A DNA stretch of 37,801 nucleotides, taken from NCBI GenBank assembly GCA_025354825.1, contig JANXMC010000356.1, forward strand, positions 1 to 37,801. The letters are read 5' to 3'. Below are positions 24,002 to 31,055 of the stretch, one piece after another. Source of the DNA: Myxococcales bacterium. GTDB lineage: Bacteria; Myxococcota_A; Polyangia; Polyangiales; Polyangiaceae. The notes under the pieces were generated by a model. The model had not been told where the DNA came from. It was given only the letters and a program-made list of their open reading frames with translations, and ran no database searches. The position numbers and the translations under genes were made by a program. Position 1 is the stretch's first letter. Every line of letters begins with the position of its first letter.

Positions 24002-25354
<1,353 letters not shown>

Positions 25355-26209: not shown

Positions 26210-26511
26210 ACCACATCGACTACTACCTCGTTCTCAGCGGGCTGCTGTTCACCATCGGCGGCACGGGCTTTCTCGTGCGCCGCAACGTGATCTTCACGCT
26301 CATCAGCATCGAGGTGATGCTCAACGCGGTGAACGTGGCGCTCGTCGCCTTCAACCGCGCGCGCCCCGAGAATCACTCGGGCCAGGTGTTCGCGTTTTTC
26401 ATGATTGCGGCAGCTGCCGCAGAAGCGGCCATCGGGCTCGCCATCGTGCTGTCGCTCTATCGATTGAAGCGCACCGTGCGCTCCGACGAGGCTGACTTGC
26501 TGAAGAACTGA
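26206..26511 (+). CDS. nuoK: NADH-quinone oxidoreductase subunit K
   Basis: LLFTIGGTGFLVRRNVIFTLISIEVMLNAVNVALVAF...GQVFAFFMIAAAAAEAAIGLAIVLSLYR; both conserved Glu retained; ATGA overlap with nuoJ. Confidence 0.95.
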   Translation: MNHIDYYLVLSGLLFTIGGTGFLVRRNVIFTLISIEVMLNAVNVALVAFNRARPENHSGQVFAFFMIAAAAAEAAIGLAIVLSLYRLKRTVRSDEADLLKN

Positions 26512-26569
26512 CGCGGCGCCGCCGGCGTATCTCGCCTTCGCCCCCCGTATCGATTCAGGAGTGTATTGG

Positions 26570-28732
26570 ATGGAATCCGGCGTTCTATCGACGCTTTTCC
26601 CGGCGGAGAACTTCTCCCTCATTGCGGTCATCCTCGGGATGCCGCTGCTCGGCGCGTTCGTAAACGGCATATGGGGCAAGAGGCTCGGCAACAACGCCGT
26701 TCGCCTCATGGCTCTGTCGGCCGTTGGCGTGAGCTTCCTGGCGTCCGTCGTGTCGTTCGCGTCGCTTTATGCGCTCGTGCACGCCTCGGGGGTCACCAAG
26801 GGTGAGCACGGCGAGTCCATGCACGAGCACGTGAAGCTCGCGTGGACGGCGTGGGAGTGGATGCACACGACAGGCGGGAAATCCGTCGTCACGATCCCCA
26901 TCAACGTGAAGTTCAGCATCGACGCGCTCTCGAGCGTGATGATGCTGGTCATTACCGGGGTCGGCTTCCTCATCCACCTCTACTCGACCGCGTACATGGA
27001 GAAGGACAAGGGCTTCGCCCGGTTCTTCGCCTACCTGAACCTGTTCATCTTCTCGATGCTGGTTCTGGTGCTCGCCGACAACCTTCCGCTCCTGTTCGTC
27101 GGCTGGGAAGGCGTCGGGCTCTGCTCGTACCTGCTCATCGGCTTCTGGTACGAGAAGAACGAGAACGCCTCCGCCGGCAAAAAGGCGTTCATCGCCAACC
27201 GCGTCGGCGACCTCGGCCTCCTCTGCGCGATGTTCCTCCTCGCGTATTACACGGGCGCTCTCGACTGGACGGGGATCGCGGCGGGCGCCGATTCGCTCGC
27301 GACGACGACGCCTTCCACGGGCGTTCACATCTGGCCCATAGGCGGCAACCAGTACACGAACTTCCTCTCGTTCCTCCAGCCGAAGGTTCCGATAACCGTG
27401 ACGGGCGCCACGGGCGTCGCCATCATGTTGCTCCTCGGCTGCACGGGGAAGAGCGCGCAGATTCCGCTCTACGTATGGCTCCCGGACGCGATGGCCGGTC
27501 CGACGCCGGTCTCCGCGCTCATCCACGCAGCGACGATGGTCACGGCAGGCGTCTACCTGATCTGCCGCCTCTCGTTCGTGTTCGTGCTGTCGCCGTTCGT
27601 GATGATGCTCGTCGCGTGCATCGGTGCCGCGACCGCGCTCTTCGCCGCGACGATTGCCCTCGTGCAGACCGACATCAAGAAGGTCCTCGCCTATTCGACC
27701 GTGAGCCAGCTCGGCTTCATGTTCCTCGGCGTCGGCGTCGGTGCGTTCACGGCGGGCTTCTTCCACGTCTTCACGCACGCCTTCTTCAAGGCCTGCTTGT
27801 TCCTCGGATCGGGCAGCGTCATCCACGCGATGCACGGTCGCGTCCACGACGACGTAAAGGCGCAAGACATCCGCAACATGGGCGGCTTGCACAAGTACAT
27901 GCCCATCACCTTCTGGACGTTCGCTGCGTCGACGGCGGCCATCATCGGCTTCCCGTTCACCAGCGGCTTCTTCTCGAAGGACGAGATTCTCTACAAGGTG
28001 ATGGTCAACCGCACGCTCCACCCAATGCGCGTCGCCTACGAGAAGTCCCACTTCGACTACTTCTCGCCGCCGCCCTGGTTGGGAACCGTCCTCTACGCCG
28101 TCGCCATCTTGGCGGCGACGATGACGGCCTTCTATATGTGCCGCGTCTTCTTCATCACGTTCTTCGGAACGTTCCGCGGCTGGACGGTAGGTCGCCCTTC
28201 GGCGCTCGCGCAGGTCGAAGCCGCCCACGGTGATCACGGCCACGACGACCACCACGACGAAGACCTATCGATCCCCGGCTACGCGCCCCACGAGTCGCCG
28301 TGGCAGATGACGGTGCCGCTGATCCTCCTCGCCACGATGGCGATCGGCGCGGGCATCCTCAACGCCGGTCTCTTCCACTTCGAGCCGCTCAACAACTGGC
28401 TCGATCCGGTGTTCGAATCGGCGAGCCACGCGGGCGTCGTCGACGGCGATCCGGAGCACCACAAGATGTGGTCGCTCGCGGCGCCCGGCATGCTTGCCTT
28501 CGCGATCGGCACCGCCATCGCCTACTGGATGTACATCCTGCAAAAGGGCGGGCCCGCGAAGAAGCTCGCGGAAGCCGCGCCCGGCCTCCATGCGCTCGTT
28601 TACGACAAGTGCGCATCGACGAGCTCTACGACAACACGGTCATCGCGGCCGTCGAGTCGCTCGCAGAAACGGCGGCGGCCTTCGACAAGTGGGTCGTCGA
28701 CGCCATCATCGCCCGCGTATCGGTCGCCGTAG
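26570..28732 (+). CDS. nuoL: NADH-quinone oxidoreductase subunit L; reading frame apparently shifts near 28609, so the annotated tail after ...VYDK is likely spurious
   Basis: GWEGVGLCSYLLIGFWYEKNENASAGKKAFIANRVGD; LLGCTGKSAQIPLYVWLPDAMAGPTPVSALIHAATMVTAGVYL; GGAG before ATG 26570. After LHALVYDK the frame loses NuoL similarity. Confidence 0.93.
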   Translation: MESGVLSTLFPAENFSLIAVILGMPLLGAFVNGIWGKRLGNNAVRLMALSAVGVSFLASVVSFASLYALVHASGVTKGEHGESMHEHVKLAWTAWEWMHTTGGKSVVTIPINVKFSIDALSSVMMLVITGVGFLIHLYSTAYMEKDKGFARFFAYLNLFIFSMLVLVLADNLPLLFVGWEGVGLCSYLLIGFWYEKNENASAGKKAFIANRVGDLGLLCAMFLLAYYTGALDWTGIAAGADSLATTTPSTGVHIWPIGGNQYTNFLSFLQPKVPITVTGATGVAIMLLLGCTGKSAQIPLYVWLPDAMAGPTPVSALIHAATMVTAGVYLICRLSFVFVLSPFVMMLVACIGAATALFAATIALVQTDIKKVLAYSTVSQLGFMFLGVGVGAFTAGFFHVFTHAFFKACLFLGSGSVIHAMHGRVHDDVKAQDIRNMGGLHKYMPITFWTFAASTAAIIGFPFTSGFFSKDEILYKVMVNRTLHPMRVAYEKSHFDYFSPPPWLGTVLYAVAILAATMTAFYMCRVFFITFFGTFRGWTVGRPSALAQVEAAHGDHGHDDHHDEDLSIPGYAPHESPWQMTVPLILLATMAIGAGILNAGLFHFEPLNNWLDPVFESASHAGVVDGDPEHHKMWSLAAPGMLAFAIGTAIAYWMYILQKGGPAKKLAEAAPGLHALVYDKCASTSSTTTRSSRPSSRSQKRRRPSTSGSSTPSSPAYRSP

Positions 28733-29115
28733 TGCAGGGGCTAGGCCTCTTCCTCCGCGCCTTCCAGACCGGCGTTATTCACGTCTACGGCGCCTTTATG
28801 GTCGTCGGCATCGCCATCGTCGGATGGTTCTTCGTCGCGCCCCACGCGAGCGTGACGCTGAACGAGTCGAACGGCGACTACACGCTGAACGCCGCCCCGG
28901 GCCTTCAGTACTCGTACCTCTGGGACGCCAACGGCGACGGCAAGCCCGACGCGCAAGAGTTCGGCGGCCAGAGCCAGGTGAAGGTTCACCTCGAGCCGGG
29001 TGGCACCCAGGTGGTGCGCCTCCAAGTGAAAAACGCCTTCGGCCTTCAGGCGTCGAAGGAGATCGTCCTCTCGCGCCCGCAGGCGTCCAAGGTGATCGAA
29101 GTGGGGCAAAACTGA
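28609..29115 (+). CDS. NuoL C-terminal portion in the -1 frame (lateral helix, TM16) plus an extra C-terminal PKD-like domain
   Basis: Frame 1 from GTG 28609: VRIDELYDNTVIAAVESLAETAAAFDKWVVDAII...RAFQTGVIHVYGAFMVVGIAIVGWFFVAPHASVTLNESNGDYTLNAAPGLQYSYLWDANGDGKPDAQEF...; stop overlaps nuoM ATG (TGATG). Confidence 0.85.
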   Translation: MRIDELYDNTVIAAVESLAETAAAFDKWVVDAIIARVSVAVVQGLGLFLRAFQTGVIHVYGAFMVVGIAIVGWFFVAPHASVTLNESNGDYTLNAAPGLQYSYLWDANGDGKPDAQEFGGQSQVKVHLEPGGTQVVRLQVKNAFGLQASKEIVLSRPQASKVIEVGQN

Positions 29116-31055
29116 TGTCTGCCACCGACCACGACCACGACGGCGCGCTCGAAGCCGAGTCGCCTCCCCTTCACGTGAAACCGGCGACGTTCGCGGCCTT
29201 CGCGGCGGGCGCCGTCGCCATGTTCGTCCTCTCGCGTTTCGTGCCGGGCTCGTTCCCCGTGCTGCTCGCTGCCGTCGTCGGCGCTCTCGTGCCCGGCAAG
29301 CTTGGTCGCGGCGATCAGGGTTGGAAAGTCCGCGCGCCGATGGCCATCATGGCCGGTCTGCTTGCGCTGTTCGTCGTCCGCCTCTGGCCGGCGACGAGCG
29401 GGATGGACATCCCCGACGGCCCCCCTCCGGCGGAGTCGGCGTCGCTTCTGTCGTGGCTCATCGCGCTCCCGATCTTGGGCGCCATCGCCATTCTCTTCAC
29501 GCCGCGCCAGGCGGTGCAAACGCTCCGAGGAATGACCCTCGGCATCATGCTGGCAACCCTCGCGTTGAGCCTGCCGCTCCTTCGCGTGAAGATGGGGCGC
29601 GAGTTCCACTTCAACCAAGACGTCGTCTGGATGAAGGATCTCGGCATCCACTACCACGTGGCCGTCGACGGCATCTCGCTCTGGCTCATTCTCTTGACGA
29701 CGTTCATCGTTCCCATCGCGACGTTCGCGTCGTTCGGGTCGATCGACAAGCGCATCAAGGATTGGTGCTTCGCGCTGCTGCTCCTCGAAGGGGCGATGAT
29801 CGGATCGTTCCTCGCGCTGGACCTCTTCCTCTTCTACGTGTTTTGGGAGCTGATGCTCGTCCCCATGTACGTCATGATTGGCGTCTGGGGAGGCGAGAAC
29901 CGCATCAAGGCGGCCATCAAGTTCTTCCTCTACACGATGTTCGGATCCGTGCTGATGCTCGCCGCGATCCTGTACCTCGCGTACACGTACGGCAAGGTTA
30001 CCGGCGGCGTCGCATCGTTCGATTACTTCGAGCTTCAGCGGCTGATGATCCCGCGGAACACGCAGCTTTGGCTCTTCGGCGCCTTCGCGCTGTCGTTCGT
30101 CATCAAGGTGCCGATGTTCCCGGTGCACACGTGGCTGCCCGACGCGCACACCGAAGCGCCGACGGCGGGCTCCGTGATCCTTGCCGCGGTCATGCTCAAG
30201 CTCGGAACCTACGGCTACCTGCGCTTCTGCATGGGGCTTTTCCCCGAGGCGTGCGCAGAAGCCGCAGCCAACTTGGCGGGCGTCGCGGTGCTTGGCGGCA
30301 TCCTCTACGGCGCGCTCTGCGCGTGGCGGCAAGACGACGTGAAGCGCCTCGTCGCGTACTCGTCGGTCGCCCACCTCGGCTACGTGATGCTCGGCATCTT
30401 CTCGGCGTCGAACGCGAGCCTCGAGGGCGCGGTTCTCCAGATGGTGAACCACGGCATCTCCACCGGGATGCTCTTCCTCCTCGTCGGCGTCGTCTACGAC
30501 CGCCGCCACACGCGCCAGCTCGGTGACTTCGGCGGCCTCGCCAAGGTGATGCCGATCTACACCGCGCTCTTCATCGTCGCGACGATGGCAAGCGTGGGTC
30601 TCCCCGGCACGAACGGCTTCGTCGGTGAGTTCATGGTCATCACCGGCACGTTCAGCAGCACGCGCCTCGGCACGTTCAACGGTGTGCAGGCGGCGGGCGC
30701 CGCGTTCGGCGTCATCCTCGGCGCGCTCTACATGCTCACCGCGGTGCAGCGCATGTTCTACGGCCCCATCACGAAGGTCGAGAATCGCCACCTGAAGGAC
30801 GTGAACAGCCGCGAGCTTCTCGCGCTCGCGCCCCTCGCCGTCATGGTCTTCGTGATCGGCCTTTTCCCGAACATCTTTCTCCTTCAGATTCGCGACGCCT
30901 GCGCACGTGTCAGCTCGGACATGAGCGCGCGCGTCGAGATGAACCGGGCCCCCCTCTTCTACCAGGGGCCGCCGACGCTCATCGCGCGCAAGCCTGAAGC
31001 GACGAAGCTTCCGGTCGCCACGGGCTCCGCTTCGACCGCCCTGAGCTCCAAGTAG
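29115..31055 (+). CDS. nuoM: NADH-quinone oxidoreductase subunit M with extended N-terminus
   Basis: LALDLFLFYVFWELMLVPMYVMIGVWGGENRIKAAIKFFLYTMFGSVLML; KVPMFPVHTWLPDAHTEAPTAGSVILAAVMLKLGTYGYLRF; 110 residues precede canonical TM1 (LLSWLIALPILGAIAILF). Confidence 0.95.
   Translation: MSATDHDHDGALEAESPPLHVKPATFAAFAAGAVAMFVLSRFVPGSFPVLLAAVVGALVPGKLGRGDQGWKVRAPMAIMAGLLALFVVRLWPATSGMDIPDGPPPAESASLLSWLIALPILGAIAILFTPRQAVQTLRGMTLGIMLATLALSLPLLRVKMGREFHFNQDVVWMKDLGIHYHVAVDGISLWLILLTTFIVPIATFASFGSIDKRIKDWCFALLLLEGAMIGSFLALDLFLFYVFWELMLVPMYVMIGVWGGENRIKAAIKFFLYTMFGSVLMLAAILYLAYTYGKVTGGVASFDYFELQRLMIPRNTQLWLFGAFALSFVIKVPMFPVHTWLPDAHTEAPTAGSVILAAVMLKLGTYGYLRFCMGLFPEACAEAAANLAGVAVLGGILYGALCAWRQDDVKRLVAYSSVAHLGYVMLGIFSASNASLEGAVLQMVNHGISTGMLFLLVGVVYDRRHTRQLGDFGGLAKVMPIYTALFIVATMASVGLPGTNGFVGEFMVITGTFSSTRLGTFNGVQAAGAAFGVILGALYMLTAVQRMFYGPITKVENRHLKDVNSRELLALAPLAVMVFVIGLFPNIFLLQIRDACARVSSDMSARVEMNRAPLFYQGPPTLIARKPEATKLPVATGSASTALSSK

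Follow-up and report, generated by a model that had tools for sequence, protein, structure and literature searches.

NuoL, the antiporter-like subunit of complex I, carries in most of the class Polyangia an additional folded domain after its last transmembrane helix (TM16), and this domain is a diverged PKD domain. The PKD fold of the tail, its conservation and its restriction within the phylum are practically certain. The best overall explanation, which we consider probable, is a Polyangia NuoL with a PKD domain after TM16 that would act as a putative periplasmic brace or docking module.

The window, that is, the whole stretch of 37,801 nucleotides that was analysed, includes part of a complex I gene cluster, and all features listed for nuoL are on the + strand. 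The features are the following.

24002-25354: nuoF, an ORF identified by reading its translation.
From 25532: nuoJ, identified by a Pfam match.
Frame ending at 26511: nuoK, identified by reading its translation.
26561-28610, + strand: nuoL body, TM1 to TM15, starting at GTG 26561 or ATG 26570, with its 3' end frame-broken.
28605-28611, + strand: one-base frame break, from the ORF table, a DNA comparison with nine relatives and the single open frames in relatives.
28612-28770, + strand: C-terminal part of the lateral helix (HL), AlphaFold helix 2-53, with NuoL profile matches.
28774-28836, + strand: TM16, AlphaFold helix 55-75; in the phylum's other classes, NuoL ends just past this helix.
28837-29112, + strand: extra C-terminal PKD domain, with strands in 28849-29073 and the last ~13 residues at low confidence.
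28924-28959, + strand: acidic loop DANGDGKPDAQE, directly after the strand-C Trp, at the position of the PKD WDFGDG turn.
29113-29117, + strand: TGATG overlap of the nuoL stop and the nuoM start, read from the sequence.
From 29115: nuoM, an antiporter-like Pfam match named by position.
From 31067: nuoN, an antiporter-like Pfam match named by position.

The protein is the Polyangia-typical form of NuoL, the antiporter-like complex I subunit ending in TM16. Its body passes the NCBIfam equivalog PRK06590.1 (612.8 bits, cut-off 556), scores 607 bits with TIGR01974 and matches Pfam Proton_antipo_M at 3.8e-77. The lateral helix and TM16 are present after TM15 in a gene adjoining nuoK and nuoM; in the window they are found only past the frame break. 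The 92-residue tail and its acidic loop lie exactly where an earlier sequence-only reading of this DNA had placed them. The stop codon TGA of the tail (29113-29115) overlaps the nuoM ATG, as would be expected if the tail is the genuine end of a gene within an operon. Two observations concern other antiporter-like genes. NuoM is extended at its N-terminus (29115-29445), ahead of the canonical start, by ~105 residues that include about three hydrophobic stretches; an extension of shorter or similar length occurs in many Polyangiaceae relatives, is absent in L088, L091, L092 and L094, and in the Sorangium NuoM (L064, L067, L068) includes a His/Asp-rich loop. Elsewhere in the source genome, contig C796 encodes a second set of such subunits (L004-L006).

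The NuoL body (ORF 26561-28732) and the part with the lateral helix, TM16 and tail (ORF 28300-29115) are in different frames. One base is missing at about 28605-28611, just before the lateral helix, and the surrounding codon string is common to nine relatives. In nearly all relatives, one open frame of about 840-930 codons covers both halves. An assembly error or local lesion is the likeliest cause of the break, which is local, since the intact relatives read carry both halves in one frame. That the two frames are real, either as a programmed frameshift or as a shortened NuoL whose tail is translated separately, would agree with what is seen in the window, but we regard it as extremely unlikely: the relatives read have a single frame, the difference amounts to one base within a shared codon string, and no other full NuoL is found in the source assembly (859 contigs). 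In addition, E. coli complex I loses nearly all quinone reductase activity when NuoL is truncated in the lateral helix (K551fs; PMC3274701). A programmed frameshift in particular is rejected because the relatives need none.

For the window's own 167 residues together with 55 relatives, AlphaFold predicts the long helix (HL), TM16 and a six-stranded beta sandwich, with a pLDDT of about 87-96 for the tail domain of the window. For the full-length in-frame NuoL of L037 the predicted arrangement is the same, and the domain has a pLDDT of about 75-89. Compared with the PDB by Foldseek, the best match of the tail is PKD1 4l9d (E=1.2e-4, TM 0.68 of target); the top matches, PKD1 4l9d and 6aem, have TM 0.65-0.68 of target, and an archaeal S-layer protein with PKD and the ColG PKD come lower. 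The PKD/Ig-like beta pattern that the sequence-only reading had proposed is thus an ordered six-stranded sandwich in the model, not disorder, with PKD1 first among its structural matches. Sequence profiles are less generous. The tail of the window scores 18.9 bits with Pfam PKD, below the cut-off of 23.5, and 3/56 close relatives match Pfam PKD at E<=0.01. A phmmer search of the tail against PDB sequences gives no match at E<=10, and the tail profile against the same sequences gives weak matches alone, such as the ColH PKD at E=0.71. Tails from elsewhere in the class do pass the Pfam PKD cut-off, namely L123 (27.7 and 31.0 bits) and L125 (28.5), with L120 just below, and hhalign aligns the window-type with the class-type tails at 96% probability (E=2.9e-9). 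Since NuoL tails of other families pass Pfam PKD and the two groups align by profile, the tail is a diverged PKD domain. What is conserved across the tails is the structural core: a glycine, the Y, the W and the VxNAFG strand. DUF4232 matches the window tail at E=0.00024, below its cut-off and slightly better than PKD; as 1/56 members match it, we set it aside. We also note that in L088, L094, L096, L148, L149, L151 and L154, which come from other families of the order, the same tail is enlarged by a long stretch of roughly 90 residues inserted after the strand-C loop and before the VxNAFG strand.

A relative of the 168-residue C-terminal piece is encoded in 56/59 related genomes, in most of them including the tail. 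With so many related genomes encoding it, nearly all in one open frame, the C-terminal piece is not there by chance. Named carriers of the tail, found by an alignment-based query of the contigs where a single-sequence query with the window piece gave nothing, include several Sorangium cellulosum strains, Polyangium species, Labilithrix and many Polyangiaceae MAGs. In the same class, a match is present in 178/241 genomes and, for most families, extends well beyond TM16. In the sample of the phylum, matches from the other classes reach only profile position about 70-90, often with a stop codon at that point. The NuoL that we read from other classes and from outside the phylum have their C-terminus just after TM16 (for the absence of the fusion outside Myxococcota, the scope is a few loci, L095 and L097-L106), and so has E. 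coli NuoL with its 613 residues. The sequence-only reading was therefore right that known NuoL end soon after TM16 and that here a further domain follows, which proves to be clade-wide and present in close relatives. On a tree of the NuoL core, with the tail left out, tail presence takes 3 changes of state, versus 20 in shuffles, and 27/27 members of an order-level clade have the tail. Judging from these sequences, the tail may have had one origin. Its presence in most of one bacterial class suggests a useful domain. Two family exceptions in the class, L124 without a tail and L119 with a different short one, indicate that the tail is not indispensable. Separately, a genome of the same family has a second NuoL-like paralogue without a tail, L147 (G033:C43).

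NuoL has 16 TMs, with a long helix on the N-side between TM15 and TM16 that spans almost the whole membrane domain and whose proximal part is anchored by TM16 (PMC3274701). Because the long helix is on the N-side, TM16 should bring the chain back to the P-side, and because TM16 anchors this helix proximally, the domain should come to lie near NuoN and the small subunits. From this topology, the tail domain is very probably periplasmic and would lie on the proton-exit face, at the proximal end of the arm and beside NuoN and the small subunits. A periplasmic tail is what the sequence-only reading had deduced, but it had assigned the domain to the distal arm, and the proximal anchoring by TM16 (PMC3274701) points to the opposite, NuoN end.

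That reading had also seen a Ca2+-loop motif in the acidic stretch; a calcium loop as the defining feature of the domain is not supported. The loop of the window, DANGDGKPDAQE, fits the EF-loop pattern DxNxDGxxDxxE exactly, and for some PKD domains Ca2+ binding with a stabilising effect is known (PMC4356367), so one could propose that the loop binds periplasmic Ca2+ and tunes complex I, by sensing or by stabilisation. We find this highly improbable. Among 77 distinct tails, the complete 12-residue pattern occurs in 7 and the 9-residue core in 25; on the tree, the core switches between presence and absence at least 7 times, and none of the Sorangium and Polyangium sequences read has it. The EF-hand, dockerin and TSP3 profiles, with which the same reading had compared the loop, give no match to the window tail at E<=1; with the loop so poorly conserved, we reject an EF-hand, dockerin or TSP3 identity. 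The calcium site of clostridial PKD domains consists of DxD before strand C and the D in VxLxVxD (PMC4356367), and these residues are absent in the window, which has AAPG before strand C and VRLQVKN in place of VxLxVxD. The acidic loop is a variant of the usual PKD turn, and the conserved role does not depend on it. On the sequence evidence, Ca2+ binding is possible for the domain of the window species and cannot be the general role of the tail.

As to what that role would be, E. coli without TM16 retains about 40% of complex I, with negligible quinone reductase activity (PMC3274701); the same paper cites milder effects of TM16 removal from another laboratory. Fused right after TM16, the domain is well placed to hold the TM16 anchor or to contact proteins. 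We tentatively propose that it may be a brace or docking module in the periplasm, permanently attached to the complex. The PKD domain would hold TM16, and hence the lateral-helix clamp, in place, and/or it would present a surface for protein-protein contacts, in analogy to the supernumerary subunits in mitochondrial complex I. A bolder version, which we find rather doubtful, is that a class-wide, vertically inherited PKD domain at the proximal periplasmic end serves as an integral module for docking or regulation such as has not been described for any complex I, where the options would be supercomplex formation, an envelope tether or ion-dependent control. More specific proposals fare less well. 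PKD domains are common contact modules, which counts in favour of the domain binding an electron carrier or another respiratory complex at its periplasmic face. The position deduced for the domain, on the periplasmic face of the membrane arm (PMC3274701), also suits such supercomplex docking, which we nevertheless judge unlikely. Anchoring in the envelope, with the domain binding peptidoglycan or a surface polysaccharide and so fixing complex I in place, draws on the occurrence of PKD domains in carbohydrate-active and surface proteins and on the glycan-binding and S-layer proteins among the Foldseek matches; the tail is short and near the membrane, and we consider this anchoring very unlikely. 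For the brace or docking module that we favour, as for its alternatives, the cultivated carriers (Sorangium cellulosum, Polyangium) make roles in assembly, stability, supercomplexes or regulation directly testable.

Complex I core subunits are highly conserved membrane proteins. Foldseek finds matches to solved NuoL/ND5 chains, and the whole core, HL and TM16 are alike in the window NuoL and in NuoL/Nqo12/ND5 of E. coli (3RKO), Thermus (4HE8) and Paracoccus (8QBY). Unlike E. coli NuoL, the window NuoL adds a folded domain after TM16, which is not seen in any NuoL/ND5 chain among the PDB matches listed, and among solved complex I structures we found none in which a folded domain is fused to NuoL at this place. 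Nor did we find, in the open-access literature, a description of a NuoL or of a complex I/NADH dehydrogenase with a PKD domain. With known PKD domains (Pfam PF00801 and PF18911; PrtV PKD1 4l9d, ColG PKD 4aqo) the tail shares the six-stranded Ig-like fold, the YxW and VxN/D motifs and the turn after strand C. It differs from them in being on a respiratory membrane subunit, in scoring below the Pfam cut-off in the family of the window, and in having no clostridial calcium site. The nearest parallel within complex I is provided by the C-terminal extensions of E. coli NuoB, NuoI and NuoF and the G-loop (PMC8357420), which are likewise lineage-specific structured additions to core subunits. Those extensions are in the cytoplasmic peripheral arm, whereas the tail of Polyangia NuoL is an entire domain that very probably lies on the opposite face of the membrane arm: a known fold in a new place on a known protein.
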